Positions 1,578 through 34,802 of a stretch of DNA of 34,802 nt are shown piece after piece. Under the pieces are notes generated by a model, which did no database searches, was not told where the DNA came from, and worked only from the letters and a program-made list of their open reading frames with translations. Both the position numbers and the translations under genes were made by a program. The stretch spans positions 1 to 34,802 of the forward strand of contig CALWNO010000027.1 in NCBI GenBank assembly GCA_944382785.1, read 5' to 3'. How positions within the stretch are numbered: position 1 is the stretch's first letter; each line of letters starts with the position of its first letter. This stretch comes from an uncultured Gemmiger sp. (GTDB taxonomy: Bacteria > Bacillota > Clostridia > Oscillospirales > Ruminococcaceae).

Positions 1578-2242
1578 TGGAAATCAAAGTGCTGCATCAG
1601 GTCATGGAGTGGAACGAGGACGTGAGCGCCGAGGTGCGCCGCACCCTGAAGGACCACAAGGTCTGTCTGATCAATGTGATGGGCAGCCCGGGCGCGGGCA
1701 AGACCAGCCTGATCACCGCCCTGATCGCCAGACTGCGGGAAGAATTTTCCATCGGGGTCATTGAGGGGGACATCACCGGCCAGATCGACGCCGAGAAGAT
1801 CGCGGCGCTGAAGATCCCGGCGGTGCAGCTGAACACCGACGGCGCCTGCCACATCGAGGCCATGAGCATCCAGCACATCCTGCCGGACTTTGACCTGGAC
1901 AGCGTGGACGTGCTGTTTGTGGAGAACATCGGCAACCTGGTCTGCCCGGCGGAGTTCGACATCGGGGAGAATTTCCGCATCACTGTGCTGAGCATCCCCG
2001 AAGGGGACGACAAGGTGGCCAAGTACCCCCTGATGTTCACCGACACTTCCTGCCTGGTGCTGAACAAGTGCGATATGCTCCCCTATTTTGACTTTGATGT
2101 GGACCGGGTGGCGGCGGACTACAAGGGCGTGAACCCCGAAGGCCCGCTGTTCCAGGTATCCAGCCGCACCGGCGACGGCCTGGACGCCCTGGCCGCCCAC
2201 ATTGCGGACAAGGTGCGCGCCGCCCTGGCCCCTCAGGCATGA
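1577..2242 (+). CDS. hypB: Hydrogenase nickel incorporation GTPase HypB
   Basis: HypB is a G3E-type GTPase that powers nickel insertion with HypA. The 221-residue sequence has a P-loop (GSPGAGKT, residues 36-43), an NKCD guanine-specificity motif (163-166) and the dimer-interface metal ligands Cys91-His92 and Cys123. It lacks both the N-terminal CxxCGC nickel site and the His-rich nickel-storage stretch found in some proteobacterial homologues, so it is a minimal HypB. Its ATG shares a base with the hypA stop, and its own stop overlaps the hypF start by four bases (ATGA), a tight translational chain. Confidence 0.96.
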   Translation: MEIKVLHQVMEWNEDVSAEVRRTLKDHKVCLINVMGSPGAGKTSLITALIARLREEFSIGVIEGDITGQIDAEKIAALKIPAVQLNTDGACHIEAMSIQHILPDFDLDSVDVLFVENIGNLVCPAEFDIGENFRITVLSIPEGDDKVAKYPLMFTDTSCLVLNKCDMLPYFDFDVDRVAADYKGVNPEGPLFQVSSRTGDGLDALAAHIADKVRAALAPQA

Positions 2243-4485
2243 CCCGGCTGCATTTTCTCATTGAAGGGATCGTGCAGGGGGTGGGGTTCCGCCCCTTTGT
2301 CCACCGGCAGGCCGCCCGCCTGGGCCTGAGCGGCTGGGCCCGCAACACCGCCGCCGGGCTGGAGCTGGAGCTGGAAGGCCCCAAAGCCGCCCTGGACGAC
2401 TTTCAAAACATCCTGCGCACCGCCCCGCCGCCGTTGGCGGTGATCGAGAAGGTGCAGGTCCAGCCGGTGCCCCCCACCGGGGAAAGAGGCTTTTCCATCC
2501 TGCCCAGCCGGGAAGGGGCGGCGGCCACCCTGGTATCCCCCGACCTGGCCCCCTGCCCCGCCTGTCTGGCCGAGATGAACGACCCCCAAGGCCGGCGGTA
2601 CCGGTATCCCTTCATCAACTGTACCGACTGCGGACCCCGGTTTTCCATCATCCGCCGCCTGCCCTACGACCGCCCCGCCACCACCATGGCCGGGTTTGCC
2701 ATGTGTCCCGACTGTGAAGCCGAATACACCGACATCACCAGCCGCCGCTACCATGCCCAGCCCAACTGCTGCCCGGTGTGCGGGCCCCGGGCCATCTACC
2801 TGGACGCCGAGGGCCATCCCCTGCCCGGGGACCCCATCGCCCTGGCCCAGCAGGCCCTGGCCGCCGGGCAGATTGTGGCGGTGAAGGGCACCGGGGGCAT
2901 CCACCTGGCCTGCCGGGCGGACGACCCCGACGCCGTGGCCCGGCTGCGCCGCCGCAAACACCGGCCGGAAAAGCCCCTGGCCCTCATGGCCCGGGACCTG
3001 GAGGCCGCCGGGCGGTTCTGCCGCCTTTCGGAGGCGGAGGCCGCCCTGCTCCAAAGCCCCCGGCGGCCCATCCTGCTCCTTTCCAAAAGGGACCCCGCCG
3101 GGCAGGGCTGGCTCAGCGCCACCACCCGGCTGGGGGTCATGCTGCCCTACACCCCGCTGCACATCCTGCTGCTGGACGGCCAGGCCGGCGGCCCCGACCT
3201 GGCGGTGATGACCAGCGCCAACCGCCCGGGATGCCCGGTGCTCATCGACAACGAGGAAGCCCTGGCCGTGCTGCACGGGGTGGCGGACGGGTTTCTGTTG
3301 CACGACCGGCCCATCGCCAACCGGTGCGATGACTCCCTGGCCATGGTCTGGCGGGGCGCGCCGGTGTTTTTCCGCCGCAGCCGGGGCTACGCCCCCCAGC
3401 CCCTGTTGCTGGACCGGGACGCCACCGGGGTGCTGGCCCTGGGGGCGGAACAGAAAGGTTCCTTTGCCGCCGGGCGGGGCCGCCACGCCTTTGTGAGCCA
3501 GTACATCGGCGACCTGAAAAACGCCGAGACGCTGGACCACTACCGCACCGCCCTGCACTCCACCCTGGACCTGTTCGGACTTGTGCCCCAGACCCTGGTG
3601 TGCGATTTACACCCCGACTACGCCTCCACCCGCCTGGCCGAAGAGCTGGCCCGGCAGCGGGGTCTGCCCCTGCGGCAGGTCCAGCACCACTGGGCCCACA
3701 TGGCCGCCTGCATGGCGGACAACCGGCTGACCGGGCCGGTGTTCGGCCTGGTCTGGGACGGCACCGGCCTGGGGGAGGACGGGACCATCTGGGGCGGGGA
3801 ATGTCTGATGGGGGATTTCCGCACCTGCCGCCGGGTGGGCTCGCTGCGCCCCGTGGCCCTGCCGGGGGGCGATGTGTGCGCCGTACAGATTGGCCGCACC
3901 GCCCTGGCCCTGGCCACCGACGCGGGCTGTGCCGACCTGGCCCCGGACTTTCCCCGCCGGGAAGGGGTGGCCGCCCTGCTGCACAGCGGCTACCGCTACC
4001 CCCGGTCCTCCGGCATGGGGCGGCTGTTTGACGGGGTGTATGCCCTGCTCACCGGCCGGGTAACGGCCGGGTACGACGGCCAGGCCCCCGCCCTGCTGGA
4101 AGCCCTGGCCGAGGGCGCCGCCCCCGCCGCCCTGTACACTCCCGCCTTTTACGAGGACGCCGGGGTTCGGTTTTTCGACACCCGGCCCCTGATCCGGGCG
4201 CTGTGCACCGGCAAAGCCGCAGGGACCGACCCCGCCGCCCTGGCCGCCGGGTTCCAGCAGGCGCTGTGCGCCATGGCCCTGGACCAGTGCCGGGCGCTGA
4301 ACCCGGACAAGCTGCCGGTGGTGCTTTCGGGCGGGGTGTTCCTGAACCGGGCCCTGCTGGACGGGGTCACCGCCCGGCTGGAAGGGGCGGGTTACCGGGT
4401 GTACACCCACAAGCGGGTCTCCCCTTCCGACGAAGGGCTTGCCCTGGGCCAGCTGGCCATCGGCGCCGCGGGCCTTGACAGTTGA
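2239..4485 (+). CDS. hypF: Carbamoyltransferase HypF
   Basis: HypF takes the carbamoyl group from carbamoyl phosphate, makes carbamoyl-adenylate and loads it onto the HypE C-terminal cysteine; this becomes the cyanide ligands of the NiFe site. The 748 residues match the family length and show all four modules in order: an N-terminal acylphosphatase domain (GIVQGVGFRPFVHR near residues 10-23), paired zinc fingers (CPACLAEM through NCCPVCGP, about 105-180), a YrdC-like nucleotide-binding domain (about 195-390) and a Kae1/TobZ-like domain with HHWAHMAAC, a DGTGLGEDG motif and LSGGVFLN near the end. Start ATG 2239 overlaps the hypB stop. Confidence 0.96.
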   Translation: MTRLHFLIEGIVQGVGFRPFVHRQAARLGLSGWARNTAAGLELELEGPKAALDDFQNILRTAPPPLAVIEKVQVQPVPPTGERGFSILPSREGAAATLVSPDLAPCPACLAEMNDPQGRRYRYPFINCTDCGPRFSIIRRLPYDRPATTMAGFAMCPDCEAEYTDITSRRYHAQPNCCPVCGPRAIYLDAEGHPLPGDPIALAQQALAAGQIVAVKGTGGIHLACRADDPDAVARLRRRKHRPEKPLALMARDLEAAGRFCRLSEAEAALLQSPRRPILLLSKRDPAGQGWLSATTRLGVMLPYTPLHILLLDGQAGGPDLAVMTSANRPGCPVLIDNEEALAVLHGVADGFLLHDRPIANRCDDSLAMVWRGAPVFFRRSRGYAPQPLLLDRDATGVLALGAEQKGSFAAGRGRHAFVSQYIGDLKNAETLDHYRTALHSTLDLFGLVPQTLVCDLHPDYASTRLAEELARQRGLPLRQVQHHWAHMAACMADNRLTGPVFGLVWDGTGLGEDGTIWGGECLMGDFRTCRRVGSLRPVALPGGDVCAVQIGRTALALATDAGCADLAPDFPRREGVAALLHSGYRYPRSSGMGRLFDGVYALLTGRVTAGYDGQAPALLEALAEGAAPAALYTPAFYEDAGVRFFDTRPLIRALCTGKAAGTDPAALAAGFQQALCAMALDQCRALNPDKLPVVLSGGVFLNRALLDGVTARLEGAGYRVYTHKRVSPSDEGLALGQLAIGAAGLDS

Positions 4486-4510
4486 TTTTGTATGACGGGA
4501 GGGTTGCTGC

Positions 4511-4735
4511 ATGTGTCTTGCAGTTCCTTTGAAGATTGTTTCGCTGGAAGGCGACGGCAAACACGCCGTGGGGGAAGCCGCCGGGCTGACCCAGAATCTG
4601 CGGGTGGATTTTCTGCCCGGCATCGCCGTGGGGGACTATGTGATGGTCCACGCGGGCTTTGCCATCGAAAAGCTCACCCCCGAGCAGGCCGCCGAGAACC
4701 TGGCCTGCATTGAGGCGGCCATCCATGCCCTGTGA
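4511..4735 (+). CDS. hypC: Hydrogenase assembly chaperone HypC
   Basis: A 74-residue OB-fold chaperone starting MCLAVPLKI. Cys2 is the invariant residue that, with HypD, carries the Fe(CN)2CO unit and delivers it to the hydrogenase large subunit. The ATG at 4511 follows GGGAGG by a short gap. It sits 25 bases after hypF and overlaps the next gene, hypD, by 11 bases, which fits the stable HypC-HypD complex known for this family. Nothing is missing or unusual. Confidence 0.95.
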   Translation: MCLAVPLKIVSLEGDGKHAVGEAAGLTQNLRVDFLPGIAVGDYVMVHAGFAIEKLTPEQAAENLACIEAAIHAL

Positions 4736-5834
4736 TGCCTGGCTGAACGCCTTCCACAACCCCGAGGGGGCGGCCCGGCTGGTGGCAGACATCCGCCGCC
4801 GCACCGAAAACCGCGCCCCCGTGCGGATCATGGAGATCTGCGGCACCCACACCATGGCCATTGCCAAGGCGGGGCTGCGCAGCCTGCTGGCCCCGGGGGT
4901 GGAACTCATCTCCGGCCCTGGGTGCCCGGTGTGCGTGACCCCCGCCGGGGAGCTGGACGCCGCGCTGGAACTGTCCGCCCGGCCGGGTGTGATCATTGCC
5001 ACCTACGGCGACCTGCTGCGGGTGCCGGGCAGCGTGCGGGGGGATACCCTTTTGCGCCGCCGGGCCGCCGGGGCGGATGTGCGCACCGTCTATTCCGCCG
5101 CCGACGGGGTAGAATTGGCCCGGGCCAACCCGAACCGGCAGGTGGTGTTCCTGGGGGTGGGGTTTGAGACCACCGCCCCCGGCACCGCCGCCTGCGTGCT
5201 GGACGCCGCCGAAACCGGGGTGAAAAACTTTTCGGTGTACTGCCTGCTCAAGCGCACCGAACCGGCTTTGCGGTCGCTGCTGGACGCCCCCGACTGCGGG
5301 GTGGACGCCCTGCTCTGCCCCGGGCATGTGGCGGTGGTCACCGGGGCGGAGGCTTTCGGATTTCTGCCCCGGGACTACGGCCTGCCCGCCGTGGTCAGCG
5401 GCTTTGACGCCGGGGACGTGCTGTACGCCGTCTGGCGGCTGGTCTGCATGGTCTGCGACGGCACCCCCGATTTGGAAAACGAGTATTCCCGCCTGGTTTC
5501 GCCTGGCGGCAACGCCGCCGCCCGGGCCGCCGTGGACAAGGTCTTTCAGCCCGCCGACAGCCCGTGGCGGGGCCTGGGGGAAATTCCCCAAAGCGGCCTG
5601 GCCCTGCGGCCGGAATACGCCCCCTGGGACGCCGCCGCCCGGTTCGGCCTTGTGCGCCGGGCGGGCACCGAGCCCCCGGGCTGCCGGTGCGGGCAGGTCA
5701 TCCGGGGGATGCTGCACCCCGAACAATGTCCCCTTTTCGGCAAAGTCTGCCGTCCGGAAGATCCGGTGGGGCCGTGCATGGTTTCTAGCGAGGGCGCCTG
5801 TGCCGCCGCCTGGAAGTACCGTCCCGCCGACTGA
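4725..5834 (+). CDS. hypD: Hydrogenase maturation scaffold HypD
   Basis: HypD, with HypC, is the scaffold on which iron receives CO and cyanide ligands; it also holds a [4Fe-4S] cluster. I chose ATG 4725 (369 residues), which overlaps the hypC end and gives the normal family length; the longer in-frame ORF would lie inside hypC. Key residues are present: Cys39 in EICGTHT, Cys67 and Cys70 in GPGCPVC, a CPGHV motif in the middle, and the C-terminal cluster cysteines in GCRCGQVIRG, EQCPLFGKVC and GPCMVSSEGAC. Spacing of the first cysteines matches characterised HypD proteins. Confidence 0.95.
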   Translation: MPCDAWLNAFHNPEGAARLVADIRRRTENRAPVRIMEICGTHTMAIAKAGLRSLLAPGVELISGPGCPVCVTPAGELDAALELSARPGVIIATYGDLLRVPGSVRGDTLLRRRAAGADVRTVYSAADGVELARANPNRQVVFLGVGFETTAPGTAACVLDAAETGVKNFSVYCLLKRTEPALRSLLDAPDCGVDALLCPGHVAVVTGAEAFGFLPRDYGLPAVVSGFDAGDVLYAVWRLVCMVCDGTPDLENEYSRLVSPGGNAAARAAVDKVFQPADSPWRGLGEIPQSGLALRPEYAPWDAAARFGLVRRAGTEPPGCRCGQVIRGMLHPEQCPLFGKVCRPEDPVGPCMVSSEGACAAAWKYRPAD

Positions 5835-5856
5835 ACCCTGTTAGGAGATGAAACCG

Positions 5857-6858
5857 ATGGAACCGATCATTACCATGGATTACGGCAGCGGCGGCCTGCG
5901 CACCGCCCAGCTTATTGATGAAATTCTGCTGCCCGCCTTAGGCAACGCCGCCCTCAACGACCTGGGGGACGGGGCCGTCCTGCCCGACCTGGGCGGCAAG
6001 CCGGTGTTTTCCACCGACAGTTTTGTGGTCACCCCCTGGAAGTTTCCGGGCGGGGACATCGGCAAGCTGGCGGTGTGCGGCACCGTCAACGACCTGTGCA
6101 TGGCCGGGGGCAAGCCCTTGTACCTGAGCCTTTCCCTGATTCTGGAGGAGGGTCTGCCCATGGACGACCTGCGCAGGGTGGTGGATTCCATCGCCCGCAC
6201 CGCCAGGGAAGCGGGGGTGCAGATCGTCACCGGCGACACCAAGGTGGTGGAGCGGGGCAGCGCCGACGGGCTGTACATCAACACGGCGGGCATCGGGGTG
6301 CTGCGGGCCCCCGGTCTGGGCCGCCGGGCCCTGCGCCCGGGGGATGCGGTGCTGGTCAGCGGCAGCGTGGGCTGCCACGGCGCCGCGGTGCTCATGGCCC
6401 GGGGGGACCTGCCGGTGGAGGGGGACCTGCGCAGCGACTGCCGCCCCCTGCATGAACTGAGCGCCGCCGCCCTGGGGGCCGGGGAGGTGCACATCCTGCG
6501 GGACCCCACCCGGGGCGGTGTGGCCACCACCCTGAACGAATTTGTGGAGGGCAGCGGGCTGTGCATCGACCTGGAGGAGGAGGCCATCCCGGTGGACGAA
6601 CCGGTGGCCGCCGCCTGCGACCTTTTGGGTCTGGACCCGCTGTACGCCGCCTGTGAGGGCCGGATGCTGGCGGTGGTGGCCCCCGGCGACGCGGACGCGG
6701 TCCTGGCCGCCCTGCACGCCCTGCCCGGGGGCGAAAGCGCCTGCCGCATCGGCACCGTGGGCACCGGACGCCCGGGCAAGGTGGTGCTGCACACGGCTTT
6801 GGGCGGCAGCCGGATTCTGGGCAAGCTCACCGGCGCCCAGCTGCCCCGCATCTGCTGA
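5857..6858 (+). CDS. hypE: Carbamoyl dehydratase HypE
   Basis: HypE is a PurM-like ATPase that dehydrates the thiocarbamate on its C-terminal cysteine to thiocyanate, the cyanide donor. The protein ends with the diagnostic PRIC, so Cys333 is the acceptor. The N-terminal MDYGSGG and the central GDTKVVERG motif are typical. Two ATGs are possible: 5848 directly abuts AGGAG with no spacer, whereas 5857 lies nine bases after it, so I chose 5857 (333 residues). It is the last gene of the operon and is followed by a strong terminator. Confidence 0.95.
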   Translation: MEPIITMDYGSGGLRTAQLIDEILLPALGNAALNDLGDGAVLPDLGGKPVFSTDSFVVTPWKFPGGDIGKLAVCGTVNDLCMAGGKPLYLSLSLILEEGLPMDDLRRVVDSIARTAREAGVQIVTGDTKVVERGSADGLYINTAGIGVLRAPGLGRRALRPGDAVLVSGSVGCHGAAVLMARGDLPVEGDLRSDCRPLHELSAAALGAGEVHILRDPTRGGVATTLNEFVEGSGLCIDLEEEAIPVDEPVAAACDLLGLDPLYAACEGRMLAVVAPGDADAVLAALHALPGGESACRIGTVGTGRPGKVVLHTALGGSRILGKLTGAQLPRIC

Positions 6859-29539: not shown

Positions 29540-30919
29540 ATGAACCAGACCGCCACCCAAAACGAACTGTTTGAAAGCCTGCCGGTGCCGGTAGCCCTGC
29601 GCCGGATGATCGTGCCTGCGGCCATCAGCCAGATCATCGTGCTGATCTACAACATGGCCGACACCTTTTACATCGGCCGCACCGACAACCCCTACATGCT
29701 GGCGGGAGCATCCCTGATTCTGCCGGTGTTCAACATGCTGCTCTGCCTGGCCTCCCTGGCGGGCATCGGCGGCGGGACCCTGATCTCCCGCCTGCTGGGG
29801 GCCGGGGAGGAGTCCGAGGCCCGCAAGGTCAGTGCTTTCAGCTTTTACCTGGCCATCGGGCTGTCCTTACTCTTCTCGGTGGGGCTGGGGGTCTTTATGG
29901 ACCCGGCCTTGCGGCTGCTGGGCGCCAAGGATACCTTCCTGCTGTATGCCCGGCAGTATTCCTTCTGCGTCATTGTGCTGGGCGCAGTGCCCACCGTCCT
30001 TTCCAACGTGCTGGCCCATCTGGTGCGCAGCGTGGGACTTTCCCGGGAAGCGGGTTTCGGCATCACCCTGGGAGCGGTGCTGAACATCCTGCTGGACCCG
30101 GTGTTCATGTACCTGATTTTGCCCGACGGCCAGCAGGTGCTGGGTGTGGGCATTGCCACCCTGTTTTCCAACTGTGTGGCCTGCGGATATTTCCTGGTGA
30201 TCCTGTACCGCATCCGGAACACCACCGTTCTCACCGCCGATTTCCGCCTGGGTCTGCCCCGGGGACAGAACATGAGCGCGGTTTTTGCGGTGGGGATTCC
30301 CTCGGCGGTGGCCAGCCTGCTCTTTGACCTGGACTATGTGGTCATCGACAAGCTGATGGTAGCCTACAGCGAGGTGGCCCTGGCGGCCATCGGCATCGTG
30401 CTCAAGGTGGAGCGGCTGCCTTTGAACGTGGGCATCGGCATCTGCCAGGGCATGGTGCCGCTGGTGGCCTACAACTGCGCTTCCGGCAACGAAAAACGGA
30501 TGAACCGGGTCATCCGGCTGTCCCTGGGGACCGGGCTGGTGGTGGCGGCGGGAAGTATTTTGCTGTATGAGGCCTTCACCCCCTGGATCGTGGGGGTGTT
30601 CATTTCGGATGCCGCCACCGTTCAGCTGGCCGATGTGTTTTTGCGCATCCGCATCCTGGCCACCCCCTTGATGTTCCTGAGCTTTTTTACCGTCTACATC
30701 TTCCAGGGGTTCGGCAACGGACGGATCTCCCTGTTTCTGGGGGTGATGCGCTGGGCGGTGTTCAACATTCCCATGCTGTTTTTGCTGGATCATCTGGTGG
30801 GCATGTACGGGATCGTCTGGTCCCAGATCTGCGCCGATGTGCTCACCGTGGCCCTGTCCGTTTACATCTACCGCACACGCCGCCCGGCGTTCGATTCCTC
30901 GGGCCCTGTGCGTCCCTGA
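29540..30919 (+). CDS. MATE-family multidrug/toxin exporter
   Basis: A 459-residue protein with twelve hydrophobic segments in two halves, the MATE layout. The N-terminal half has MIVPAAISQIIVLIYNMADT and FYIGRTDN, a typical DinF/NorM-like opening, and NVLAHLVRSVGLSREAGFG matches the conserved loop in the first half. ATG 29540 follows GAGGGAGGGG by six bases; an in-frame ATG at 29519 lacks a ribosome site. MATE proteins use sodium or proton gradients to export cationic compounds. It is a one-gene unit ending at a shared terminator. Confidence 0.95.
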   Translation: MNQTATQNELFESLPVPVALRRMIVPAAISQIIVLIYNMADTFYIGRTDNPYMLAGASLILPVFNMLLCLASLAGIGGGTLISRLLGAGEESEARKVSAFSFYLAIGLSLLFSVGLGVFMDPALRLLGAKDTFLLYARQYSFCVIVLGAVPTVLSNVLAHLVRSVGLSREAGFGITLGAVLNILLDPVFMYLILPDGQQVLGVGIATLFSNCVACGYFLVILYRIRNTTVLTADFRLGLPRGQNMSAVFAVGIPSAVASLLFDLDYVVIDKLMVAYSEVALAAIGIVLKVERLPLNVGIGICQGMVPLVAYNCASGNEKRMNRVIRLSLGTGLVVAAGSILLYEAFTPWIVGVFISDAATVQLADVFLRIRILATPLMFLSFFTVYIFQGFGNGRISLFLGVMRWAVFNIPMLFLLDHLVGMYGIVWSQICADVLTVALSVYIYRTRRPAFDSSGPVRP

Positions 30920-30940
30920 TTCCCTGCCCCGCCCTGCCAA

Positions 30941-30978
30941 AAAAAGACCTGCCGTCTTGGGAAACGGCAGGTCTTTTT
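30941..30978. terminator. Bidirectional terminator between convergent genes
   Basis: A perfect 15-base stem (30941-30955 with 30964-30978) with AAAAA on the left and TTTTT on the right around an eight-base loop. It ends the MATE gene and the minus-strand gene at 30998. Confidence 0.94.
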
Positions 30979-30997
30979 GCTTTGTCGGGTGGACTGC

Positions 30998-31645
30998 TTA
31001 CCGGATCACGGTCATCTCTTTCACCGGTCCGTAGCAGACCAGGCGGTCGCTGTAGGTATCGTAGGCCACAAAGGCCCGGTGTTCCCGGTCAAAGCCGTAG
31101 AAGGCACCCCGGCTGCCTGCAGGCAGAGCCTGCCCGCACAGGGTATAGCGATTTTCCTGGCTCAGGGCCACGTAGAGCTTGCCCTTGAAGAAGGGCATAC
31201 TGCGCGCCCGGTCAAACAACTGACACAGCGGGTCGGTCAGGTCCCGGCGCAGCGATACCCGTTCCTCGATGGAATCCGGCTTGATATGGGTCTTAGGGCG
31301 CCGCAGCATGGAAATGTTGTCTTTCATATACTGGGCGGCGATGGCCGCGTCATCATCGAGGCAGACGGCTTCCAGCCGGGCCGCCGCCACCGACGCCCGC
31401 AGCAGGATGTCCTTGCCCTGGATGTACAGGGTGCGCAGCGGAAGCTGTGCTGTCAGCAGGCAGAAGGGAATCTCCTCCATGCCCGGTTTCAGCGACAGGC
31501 CCCGGTCCTCCTCACTGTCCTGGGGGTCTGCTTCCATGACGGCATTGCGGAACCGGGCCGAACGCCACAGCTGGTGAAGATGGCTCAGCATCAGATAGCG
31601 GTCACCCTTGCAGTCTTCCAGCAGAATTTTCACTGGTTTTGCCAA
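30998..31645 (-). CDS. Unrecognised 215-residue cytoplasmic protein
   Basis: I do not recognise this protein. The start is TTG 31645, eight bases after AAGGGAGG; longer in-frame options reach into the upstream gene and lack a site. It begins MAKPVKILLEDCKGDRYLML, has no signal peptide or membrane segment, and is of mixed charge with several Cys. It lies 70 bases downstream of the giant HD-domain gene on the same strand and ends at a shared terminator, so the two are probably cotranscribed. A role as a partner, chaperone or antidote of that protein is conceivable from position alone. Confidence 0.75.
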   Translation of the reverse strand: MAKPVKILLEDCKGDRYLMLSHLHQLWRSARFRNAVMEADPQDSEEDRGLSLKPGMEEIPFCLLTAQLPLRTLYIQGKDILLRASVAAARLEAVCLDDDAAIAAQYMKDNISMLRRPKTHIKPDSIEERVSLRRDLTDPLCQLFDRARSMPFFKGKLYVALSQENRYTLCGQALPAGSRGAFYGFDREHRAFVAYDTYSDRLVCYGPVKEMTVIR

Positions 31646-31715
31646 GTTGATGTCCTCCCTTATTGGATGTAGGGTTTGCGGGCCGCAGGTACAGCGGTCT
31701 GCGGGAAAAGCCGGC

Positions 31716-34700
31716 TTATTCGAACAGGACTTCGAAGTCCTCCTCCGCACCGAAATGGGAGGTATAGAACTTTGCCTGCTGGCTGTTTTCGTCCACCCCG
31801 TGCACATGGATCACATGGCGGACCTTGTTGCCCAGCACCGGCATGCCGGCTTCCTGTACCCGGTCCCGAATGGCCTTGCCGCTCAGTTCGGGGATGAGTT
31901 TGCCGTCTTTCACCTCGTAGTGAATTTCCAGGTTGCCGGTGGTTTCATTATAGCAGATTCCCCCGCAATCCACATTGCTTTCCCCGGAATAGCATTCCAC
32001 CGATTTTTTGGTGGGGTCGGGGTGTTCGTGTTCCGAGGGCTCGCCGGTTTCCGGGTTCACAAATTCCACCTTGATGGATTCCACCGCCTCGTCTGCGCTG
32101 GCGTAGTCCCCTTCCAGGTTGCTCATCTTGATGCCGTCCTGGGACTGGGTCATGCTGATTTCCCGGGCCGGACGCTGGGCGTCCGCTTCCCGGAGGATGG
32201 CCACCTCGTACTGCAGGCGGGTGTAGGCCTTTTCATTGGTGATGGTGAACTTGCCGTTCTCGTCCATGGTTCCCAGGAAGCCGGGGTCATAGGTCAGGCC
32301 ACGGGCCTTGGCGGTTTCCGCCATGCGCTCCACTGCCTGTTCCATCTCCTTGCGCACAAAGGCGTCGCTGTCGGTGACATGCCATTTGCCGTTCTTGTCC
32401 TGCGCGGCAAAGGAACTGGGATCGAACTCGATGCCCTTGTCCTGGTAATACTGGATCATCTGGTCCAGCCGTCCCGGCTTGGTGACCTCGCCGGTGGTCT
32501 GTCCGCTGTTGTAGTTGGCCGGGTCTTTTTCGATCTTCACGCCGGAATTGCTCTTGCTGTGCATGTAGACGAGGGTTGCCACCTCGTTGGGATTCACATC
32601 GGCGGTGCGTACCTGGTCCCCATTGTCCAGCACATGCATGGCGGATTCCAGCGGGTGGTTGGAACGGATGACATCGCCGTAATCGTCCTTGCCCGTTTTT
32701 TCCAGATGGGCCTGCTGGTCGGCAAGATATTCCGCCGTCCCCTTGTGGCCGCCGTCCATACCGGTGTCATGCCAGACACAGGAGGTTACCACCGTGGGCA
32801 GATGAGGCGCCGCCGGGTCGTTGGGGTCGATGCCCTGGCTCTTGGCGTATTCCATATATGCCTGGTAGAACCGGATCCCGTTGGTGGTGACTTCCTTGAT
32901 GTGTTCAGGGCCATGGTCGGTGTAGTTGTCCAGGGTCTTGTCCAGCTTGGCGATTTCCATGGCGTTGTCGTAGTACCCCGATGCGCTTTCCATCATCTTT
33001 TCATAGTTTTCCTTGATTTCGGGGTTCGTTTCACTGACTTCGTTCAACGCCTTTTCCAGATCCTTCTGGGTCTTTTCCAGCTGGCGTTCATAGTTGGACT
33101 TTTCTTCGCCCAGTTTTTCTTTTTCTCCCAGATCTTCCTTGATTTCAGGATTCTTGGGACCGTTGGGGCCATCCAGAGGCGGATCGTTCGGACCGTTAGG
33201 ACCGTCCAAGGGTGGATCATTCGGACCGTTGGGCCCGTCCAGAGGCGGGTCCGCCGGACCCTTGGGGGTCTCTACAGGCGGGTCGCCCGGACCCTCGAGG
33301 CCGTCCGACGGCGCATTGGCGAATTTTTCCATCTGCTGCGCCCGCTGTTGCTGCTGTTTTTCTACAAACTCCAGATACAGCTCGGACCGCTCCATGCCCG
33401 AAATGGGCATATGCTGCAGGTGTTCCAGGTAGGAGGCCCGGGCCTGGGCATCTATCTGTTCGATCAGCTCGCTGTTTTCCATGCCATAGGGTTTGTAACC
33501 CCAATCCTGTCCTTCGCCGATATATTTGCCATCGGCGTCATAATTCTTGGGGTCCAGATAGTCCTGGAAGGTATGCTGCCGGTGCGGCGTATCCGCCTGC
33601 ACCTGTTGGGGATCATCGGGATTTTCTTCCGGTTGCTTCTCCTCTGTCTCCTGAGGCACAGCCGCAACCTCTTTAAGCGATCCATCCGCATTCTCAGCCC
33701 GGTTGTCGGTGTCCTCGTCGTCCGGGTTGTCCGTGTCGCTGCCATCCGGGTTGTCCGTGTCGCCGCCTTCGGGGTTCTCGGTGTCGCCGCCCTCGGAGGT
33801 CTCGGTGTCACCACCCTCGGGATTTTCGGTATCGCCATCCTCGGGGTTGTCGGTATCGCCATCCTCCGGGTTCTCCGTGTCGCCGCCCTCCGGGCTCTCC
33901 GTGTCGCCGCCTTCAGGGTTGTCGGTATCGCTGCCCTCGGGGTTCTCGGTATCGCTGCCCTCGGGATTCTCGGTATCGCTGCCCTCGAGGTTGTCCGCAT
34001 CGCCGCCTTCGGGGTTGTCGGTATCGCCACCCTCGGGATTCTCGGTTTCGCCGCCTTCAGGGTTCTCCGTGTCGCCACCTTCGGGGTTGTCCGTATCGCT
34101 ACCCTCGGGGTTGTCGGTGTCGCCGCCTTCGGGGTTGTCCGTGTCGCTATCCTCGGGGCTCTCGGTGTCACCACCCTCGGGGTTCTCGGTGTCGCCACCC
34201 TCGGAGGTCTCGGTGTCGCCGCCTTCCGGGTTCTCGGTGTCGCCGCCCTCGGAGGTCTCGGTGTCACCACCCTCGGGATTTTCGGTATCGCCACCTTCGG
34301 GGGTCTCCGTGTCGCCGCCTTCGGGGGTGTCGGTATCGCCATCCTCCGGGTTGTCCGTATCGCCGCCTTCGGGGTTCTCGGTGTCACCACCCTCGGGGTT
34401 CTCCGTGTCACCATCCTCCGGGTTTCCCGTGTCGCTGCCTTCCGGGTTGTCGGTGTCGCCGCCCTCGGGGTTGTCGGTATCGCTGCCTTCGGGGTTCTCG
34501 CTATCTCCGCCTTCGGGGTTGTCGGTATCGCCACCCTCGGGATTCTCGGTGTCGCCGCCTTCAGGGTTCTCGGTATCGCCACCCTCGGAGGTCTCGGTGT
34601 CACCGCCTTCGGGATTCTCGGTGTCGCTGCCCTCGGAGTTGTCCGTGTCGCCGCCTTCGGGGTTCTCGGTGTCACTGCCCTCGGAGGTCTCGGTATCGCC

Positions 34701-34802
34701 GCCTTCGGGATTGTCAGTATCGCCGCCCTCGGGGTTCTCCGTGTCACCATCCTCCGGGTTTCCCGTGTCGCTGCCTTCCGGGTTGTCGGTGTCGCCGCCC
34801 TC
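31716..34802 (-). CDS. Giant acidic-repeat protein with HD-hydrolase-like domain, partial (N-terminus outside window)
   Basis: An uninterrupted minus-strand frame of 1028 codons enters from the right edge; the start is not in the window. In visible numbering: residues 1-361 are tandem acidic octapeptides (consensus PEGGDTEN); 362-505 are acidic and Gln-rich; 505-549 are 11-residue Pro/Gly/Asp repeats; about 555-610 is a charged coiled coil; about 620-760 is HD-like (DHGPEH with His630 and His634, WHDTG with His678-Asp679, His716 in SNHPLESAMH); the last 250 residues are unrecognised and rich in Glu/Asp. No LPxTG motif or membrane helix occurs at the C-terminus. A GTG at 33659 with AAAGAGG eight bases upstream could give a repeat-free 647-residue form. 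Substrate is unknown. Confidence 0.82.
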   Translation of the reverse strand, partial: EGGDTDNPEGSDTGNPEDGDTENPEGGDTDNPEGGDTETSEGSDTENPEGGDTDNSEGSDTENPEGGDTETSEGGDTENPEGGDTENPEGGDTDNPEGGDSENPEGSDTDNPEGGDTDNPEGSDTGNPEDGDTENPEGGDTENPEGGDTDNPEDGDTDTPEGGDTETPEGGDTENPEGGDTETSEGGDTENPEGGDTETSEGGDTENPEGGDTESPEDSDTDNPEGGDTDNPEGSDTDNPEGGDTENPEGGETENPEGGDTDNPEGGDADNLEGSDTENPEGSDTENPEGSDTDNPEGGDTESPEGGDTENPEDGDTDNPEDGDTENPEGGDTETSEGGDTENPEGGDTDNPDGSDTDNPDDEDTDNRAENADGSLKEVAAVPQETEEKQPEENPDDPQQVQADTPHRQHTFQDYLDPKNYDADGKYIGEGQDWGYKPYGMENSELIEQIDAQARASYLEHLQHMPISGMERSELYLEFVEKQQQQRAQQMEKFANAPSDGLEGPGDPPVETPKGPADPPLDGPNGPNDPPLDGPNGPNDPPLDGPNGPKNPEIKEDLGEKEKLGEEKSNYERQLEKTQKDLEKALNEVSETNPEIKENYEKMMESASGYYDNAMEIAKLDKTLDNYTDHGPEHIKEVTTNGIRFYQAYMEYAKSQGIDPNDPAAPHLPTVVTSCVWHDTGMDGGHKGTAEYLADQQAHLEKTGKDDYGDVIRSNHPLESAMHVLDNGDQVRTADVNPNEVATLVYMHSKSNSGVKIEKDPANYNSGQTTGEVTKPGRLDQMIQYYQDKGIEFDPSSFAAQDKNGKWHVTDSDAFVRKEMEQAVERMAETAKARGLTYDPGFLGTMDENGKFTITNEKAYTRLQYEVAILREADAQRPAREISMTQSQDGIKMSNLEGDYASADEAVESIKVEFVNPETGEPSEHEHPDPTKKSVECYSGESNVDCGGICYNETTGNLEIHYEVKDGKLIPELSGKAIRDRVQEAGMPVLGNKVRHVIHVHGVDENSQQAKFYTSHFGAEEDFEVLFE
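33157..33288 (-). repeat. 33-bp tandem repeat, four units, inside the HD-domain gene
   Basis: Units at 33157-33189, 33190-33222, 33223-33255 and a more divergent one at 33256-33288, with a partial fifth. They encode an 11-residue unit, DPPLDGPNGPN, probably a stiff linker. The length is a multiple of three, so unit number can change without a frameshift. Confidence 0.9.
33721..34802 (-). repeat. 24-bp tandem repeat, 45 full units, encoding an acidic octapeptide
   Basis: Forty-five complete 24-base units run from 33721 to 34800 without a single insertion or deletion, and a 46th begins at the window edge. Each encodes an octapeptide close to P-E-G-G-D-T-E/D-N; common variants are S for P, D or S for G, and T for N. 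Every unit carries about three acidic residues and almost none is basic. Third-position changes between units show the array is old enough to have drifted under selection for the peptide. Confidence 0.97.

Follow-up and report, generated by a model that had tools for sequence, protein, structure and literature searches.

A giant polyacidic HD-domain protein as a possible output enzyme of a tubulin/GTPase/vWA gene run in an uncultured Gemmiger

The window analysed here comprises the entire contig C27 (34,802 bp) from the assembly (2.68 Mb in 111 contigs) of an uncultured Gemmiger sp., and its right end is occupied by an open reading frame (ORF) that joins a very long array of acidic octapeptides to an HD domain. 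The probable N-terminal half of the same gene was found on a second contig, C5, where it belongs to a long one-strand run of genes for tubulin-like, GTPase, vWA and membrane proteins. We propose, with a probability of about 0.45 and thus tentatively, that the giant protein is a cytoplasmic HD phosphohydrolase that forms the output of a membrane-linked tubulin/GTPase/vWA system, and that it is tethered or condensed via its polyacidic chain. The gene context of the protein is well supported; the mechanism is what we infer.

A single open frame on the minus strand, with repeats delimited by Tandem Repeats Finder (TRF), runs from the acidic octapeptides through an 11-residue Pro/Gly repeat and then a helical stretch into the HD domain, and no stop or frameshift separates the array from the HD domain in the current assembly. 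The original prediction had read at least 45 octapeptides, the Pro/Gly repeat and an HD motif as a single frame, and this was borne out: the array consists of 45 complete units and a degenerate 46th (DDEDTDNR), and the contig breaks inside it. The coiled coil that had also been proposed survives as a charged helical stretch, for which a coiled-coil structure is suggested by weak matches under the cut-offs and by two long low-confidence helices in the model. Matches to PEARLI-4, IL6 and ApoLp-III (below cut-off) and a Cornifin match on the array (over cut-off) were taken as coiled-coil or low-complexity artefacts. The earlier suspicion that a fusion of an HD-type protein to such an array had not been described as a family agrees with the lack of a model for the whole protein in Pfam, NCBIfam and PADLOC.

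The octapeptide array is coding and not a product of chance. Over 93 units (45 from C27 and 48 from C5) the mean entropy at codon positions 1, 2 and 3 was 0.21, 0.25 and 1.04 bits, respectively. Among the C27 units, the single-base codon differences in the coding frame were synonymous in 2500 cases and non-synonymous in 1359. The corresponding ratios were 199:3185 and 241:3275 for the two shifted sense frames, whereas the three antisense frames gave 448:3259, 2517:1027 and 225:3197. Because one antisense frame scores equally well, the codon statistic alone cannot fix the strand of the array; the strand is decided by the read-through into the conserved HD domain downstream.

The assignment of the predicted HD domain holds through a relative, the only one found in the scan of genome contigs. 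It is encoded on a 3691-bp contig of Candidatus Anaerofilum excrementigallinarum, identical letter for letter to a contig of genome G237, which is 83% complete. The relative passes the cut-off of the HD-CE family (PF24391; 27.9 bits, E 2.4e-6, cut-off 27), whereas the window protein itself matches the family weakly and stays below the cut-off (12.4-16.6 bits, E 0.0067-0.12). The relative also matches PF01966 (HD), here below the cut-off (20.7 bits, E=5.3e-4, cut-off 22), in a match that begins at the first proposed ligand, the second His of DHGPEHI, and takes in HDTG. The two proteins are 44% identical over the C-terminal part, and the proposed ligands H-HD-H-H-D are the same in both, within DHGPEHI, HDTGMDGG, (N/G)HP, HSKSNSG and ADAQRP. 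The last three of these (H, H and D) were assigned by HD patterns, and the order of the whole set presumably resembles that of the six-ligand HD enzymes. While the H...HD region thus resembles HD-CE and HD, the window protein differs from these families by a long insert before the last Asp, by a conserved C-terminal segment and by the huge acidic array. In the relative, a Pro/Gly/Asn-rich stretch lies ahead of the HD domain. No significant relatives of the HD part were present among the PDB, plasmid, phage and viral-contig sequences.

Within the genome, the octapeptide array was found just twice and on the same strand, once where C27 ends on the right and once where C5 ends on the left. The C5 end encodes 681 amino acids (aa) from an ATG, starting with MDEMGGGMESG and including 48 further octapeptides, ahead of which lies a second, diverged octapeptide array (GDVDIPDT-like). 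Since the two ends match in orientation, in frame and in the half that each is missing (C27 holds the C-terminus only and C5 the N-terminus only, with exact shared stretches of up to 77 bp), we take them to be, probably, the halves of one gene. The product would then measure at least about 1700 aa, a minimum that presumes a single gene and that the full array may exceed; the computed charge at pH 7 is -228 for the N part and -205 for the C part. The contigs are unjoined, with an end overlap of no more than 17 nt, as would be the case for two genes with similar arrays, a C5 array protein and a C27 HD protein, each cut by the assembly. The overlap proves nothing, because both ends lie inside the repeat array, and given the fit of the only two array ends in the genome we consider two genes very unlikely.

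The arrays also bear on another explanation, in which an ordinary HD phosphohydrolase has undergone a neutral satellite expansion and the array contributes solubility at most. Recent expansion is shown by exact 60-base repeats among the 24-bp units, spaced 336 and 456 bp on C27 and 432 and 240 bp on C5, and the genome of the relative yielded no array. However, the concentration of the variation at third codon positions and the second, diverged array ahead of the first argue against neutrality, which makes this explanation unlikely.

The original prediction left the location of the protein to its hidden N-terminus and considered a calcium-binding array or an extended stalk that would place the enzyme at the surface. 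The probable N-terminus on C5 has no signal peptide visible by eye, a hydropathy scan revealed no membrane or hydrophobic segment in either half, and no sorting signal was seen in either half, as had been noted earlier for the C-terminus. The repeats are Asp-rich and the run's vWA proteins appear to be secreted or bound to the membrane, as a surface display of the enzyme would have it, and leaderless export via the HerA-type ATPase of the run is conceivable, but without support. The surface stalk is therefore not supported and appears extremely unlikely; the giant protein probably stays inside the cell. A role of the array in solubility or phase separation, the other idea of that prediction, may still apply. 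The C5 gene run offers the better explanation, since its tubulin-like, GTPase and membrane proteins suggest that the HD protein is not displayed at the surface but acts as the output enzyme of a system associated with the membrane.

The array-HD gene appears to be the last but one of this run, which continues from C5 to p215 on C27 (Table 1) and may be co-transcribed. For the C5 ORFs that have no family match, the support consists of frame and position alone, and long antisense ORFs also occur in this G+C-rich DNA. Two of the three Tubulin_2 ORFs are 75% identical over about 1000 aa, which suggests a recent duplication. Among seven proteins scanned with PADLOC 2023 (E<=0.01), HerA-type models and one mad8 model matched the ATPase and LmuB matched one tubulin marginally (E=0.0016); none matched the HD protein, p215, the 883-aa protein, the GTPase or the vWA protein. 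Single-sequence hhalign provided no identification for GAP1, p618 or p203. The charge of p316 is opposite to that of the acidic array of the same run.

Table 1. Features of the giant gene, its partner and the associated gene run (TM, transmembrane)
Feature	Contig	Position	Strand	Basis and remarks
Giant acidic HD protein, C-terminal 1028 aa	C27	31716..34802	-	Open frame, incomplete, leaves contig at 34802
24-bp tandem array	C27	33701..34802	-	45.9 copies, TRF score 1070; commonest units EGGDTENP, EGGDTETS, EGGDTDNP
33-bp (11-aa) Pro/Gly/Asp repeat	C27	33157..33266	-	3.3 copies, TRF score 122
Charged helical stretch, possible coiled coil	C27	32943..33111	-	Low-confidence model helices 2-29, 31-57; weak profile matches
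Predicted HD domain	C27	32181..32903	-	HD-CE and HD matches; residues invariant in two sequences
Proposed HD ligands	C27	H 32901-32903; HD 32766-32771; H 32655-32657; H 32559-32561; D 32181-32183	-	
Conserved C-terminal segment	C27	31719..31991	-	YxGESNVDxG...YN...GxLEIxYxVKDG, predicted strand-rich
p215, 215 aa	C27	30998..31645	-	TTG start behind AAGGGAGGA, picked by alignment to relative
TM-Toastrack protein (DUF4097)	C5	upstream start of run	same as giant gene	
Three tandem Tubulin_2 ORFs, 987, 1060, 1188 aa	C5	20528-30235	-	E 1.4e-50 to 1.4e-60
p618	C5	after tubulins	same	Frame and position
Multi-TM vWA protein with DDSGS	C5	after p618	same	TM by hydropathy
p203, 203 aa	C5	after multi-TM vWA	same	No Pfam match
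Zinc-ribbon P-loop GTPase, 513 aa	C5	after p203	same	GNTSSGKT, DFPGE, SKAD motifs and CxxC pairs
Zinc-ribbon protein, 301 aa	C5	after GTPase	same	
883-aa protein	C5	after 301-aa protein	same	
p387	C5	after 883-aa protein	same	
p316	C5	9125-10075	-	One N-terminal hydrophobic segment, then basic Thr/Ala/Lys/Gly-rich tail; pI 10.2, charge +24
p308, then p385	C5	after p316	same	
Second vWA protein	C5	after p385	same	N- and C-terminal hydrophobic segments; apparently secreted with C-terminal TM
HerA-type ATPase, 921 aa	C5	between second vWA gene and giant gene	same	DUF87 E 7.2e-9
Transglutaminase-core protein	Anaerofilum contig	2336-3691	+	E 3.7e-10; Trp/Asp-rich low-complexity N-terminus

The small gene p215 directly follows the HD gene both in the window genome and in Ca. 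Anaerofilum, the two copies being 42% identical; of 19 chosen genomes, p215 was detected in 2, those that also have the HD gene. The ORF list holds a longer version of p215 that begins with an ATG at 31807. Viral contigs contained no relatives, and the structure model (pLDDT 40.5) was too poor to be searched for structural matches. No promoter- or terminator-like site was found at 30880-31760, and past p215 the gene run meets a convergent MatE gene. Elsewhere in the window (2239-6855, plus strand), Pfam matches indicated the hydrogenase maturation genes hypF and hypD and an AIRS protein, possibly hypE.

In Ca. Anaerofilum, HD and p215 are followed on the contig by the transglutaminase-core protein. 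Trp/Asp-rich N-termini like that of the latter are also seen in the window genome, on p308 and on the multi-TM vWA protein, and may represent a shared tag. The distribution of the HD gene is sparse: it was detected in 2/396 genomes of the family, in 1/35 of the genus and, with a two-sequence profile, in 1/394 of the order sample (the three samples overlap). This distribution, a long repetitive protein ending in an enzyme-like domain, and a small gene downstream that is conserved alongside it together resemble an effector-immunity pair, in which HD would be the toxic C-terminal domain on a repetitive carrier, p215 the immunity protein and the tubulin run loosely related. That HD and p215 are present in G237, in which neither Tubulin_2 nor the GTPase was detected, points the same way. 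The probable N-terminus without an export signal speaks against such a pair, as does the equal conservation of p215 (42%) and the HD part (44%), which shows no sign of tip exchange among the only two copies known, and we judge it unlikely.

An output enzyme of the tubulin/GTPase/vWA system could operate as follows. The membrane and vWA proteins would sense a signal from the envelope or from an invader, upon which the GTPase and tubulin-like filaments would assemble beneath the membrane. The giant protein would consist of a polyacidic, probably disordered chain built from two types of octapeptide, followed by a Pro/Gly hinge, then by a helical stretch and finally by the C-terminal HD phosphohydrolase. 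The chain would tether or concentrate the enzyme at the membrane, perhaps because it pairs with p316 via the basic tail of the latter. As the output, the HD domain would hydrolyse a phosphoester, either a nucleotide or a nucleotide messenger, and p215 would regulate or neutralise the enzyme; the whole might serve in conflict or stress. In a more specific version, which we regard as doubtful, the system has acquired a dedicated HD output on a chain of more than 90 octapeptides, the chain and the basic tail of the membrane protein form a condensate driven by charge, and p215 controls the enzyme. If true, the tubulin/GTPase/vWA systems would gain an effector class that is new and a way of recruiting it by a charge tether. 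In addition, an HD enzyme whose predicted biochemistry is simple (a metal-dependent phosphohydrolase) and which has a conserved partner offers a direct route to testing what such a system does.

To place the run we compared it with other genomes of the family. Tubulin_2 was found in 17/247 of these (the window genome included; 16 of the 17 over the cut-off), and the neighbourhoods of 12 of the 16 others were compared by BLAST (ORFs on the tubulin strand, E<=1e-3), at one place each and with several ended by contig ends. Relatives of the GTPase occur in three of the twelve (G131, 1.4e-17; and marginally G069, 1.3e-4, and G053, 7.7e-4), and relatives of the vWA proteins likewise in three (G131, G053 and G148). 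The G131 set comprises a vWA protein, Tubulin_2, a DO-GTPase2 protein over the cut-off, a vWA-TM protein and a GAP1-M/GAP1-N2-like protein below the cut-offs (E 1e-4 and 6.5e-4); its DO-GTPase2 protein matches the C5 GTPase (BLAST 1.4e-17, hhalign 98.9%). The HerA-type ATPase has relatives in 38 other genomes of 396, and six of their neighbourhoods (G362, G293, G416, G116, G314 and G202) contained no other run component by BLAST; in G202, Tubulin_2 lies on a contig other than that of HerA. The nearest HerA relative (45% over the core) is found in another genus, at 31285-32724 (plus strand) of contig C31 of G362, one of these six; the neighbourhood compared there spans 22.8 kb.

Several results weigh against the proposed output enzyme, besides the unjoined state of the two contigs. 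Neither HD nor p215 was encountered in the 12 other Tubulin_2 neighbourhoods, and G237 lacks not only a detectable acidic array, Tubulin_2 and GTPase (at 83% completeness and with HD on a 3.7-kb contig) but also an entry among the matches listed for HerA and for the 883-aa protein. With neither Tubulin_2 nor the GTPase detected there, HD and p215 perhaps form a module of their own, independent of the tubulin system. The AlphaFold model of the HD part, built from two sequences, was poor (pLDDT 55.5); it did not show the HD fold, and Foldseek returned no PDB match at E<=0.001. Finally, the C5 GTPase has no direct match to a DO-GTPase model, and the 883-aa protein, which occupies the place expected for GAP1, had no GAP1 match up to E=10 and no hhalign match (single sequences) to the GAP1-like protein of G131.

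The G131 set ties the C5 run to two groups of tubulin-centred GTPase/vWA operons that have been described by computation and whose output is not known (PMC7159879, PMC2875224). The first is the tubulin theme of Firmicutes within the GAP1-N2 type of GTPase-centric conflict systems (Kaur et al. 2020, PMC7159879). As described there, it shares with the C5 run multiple tubulin-domain genes, a pair of vWA genes that includes one for a multi-TM protein, a zinc-ribbon P-loop GTPase, TM proteins and lineage-specific variable components. It differs by two tubulins instead of three, and the components described there do not include the HerA-type ATPase, the giant acidic HD protein and p215; in the main text six HD terms have 0 occurrences and HerA appears only within a reference. 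FNIII repeats had no match in the run proteins scanned, the 203-aa candidate being without a Pfam match, and since neither GAP1 nor FNIII was recognised, the run is classed as a relative, and not as a proven member, of these systems. The second group is formed by the FtsZl1/vWA/GTPase operons, for which membrane remodelling was proposed (Makarova and Koonin 2010, PMC2875224). If Tubulin_2 is taken to be the FtsZl1 family, they resemble the C5 run in bringing together an FtsZ-like protein, vWA proteins, a GTPase that has diverged and membrane proteins; the main text of the paper is free of the terms 'HD domain', 'phosphohydrolase', 'acidic' and 'HerA'. Searches of the open-access literature listed no paper that links these operons to an HD protein or to acidic octapeptides in its title or abstract; two of the papers listed contain the terms HD domain, vWA domain and HerA (PMC9503650, PMC7824862). 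The Toastrack domain, present at the start of the run, has been proposed to aid the assembly of sub-membrane complexes (PMC11237479). The reading of the HD protein as an effector follows the published pattern that GTPase-centric systems carry variable effector genes (PMC7159879). A phosphohydrolase output would not be without parallel, since among effectors of the sister GAP1-N1 type a calcineurin-type phosphoesterase is the commonest (PMC7159879).

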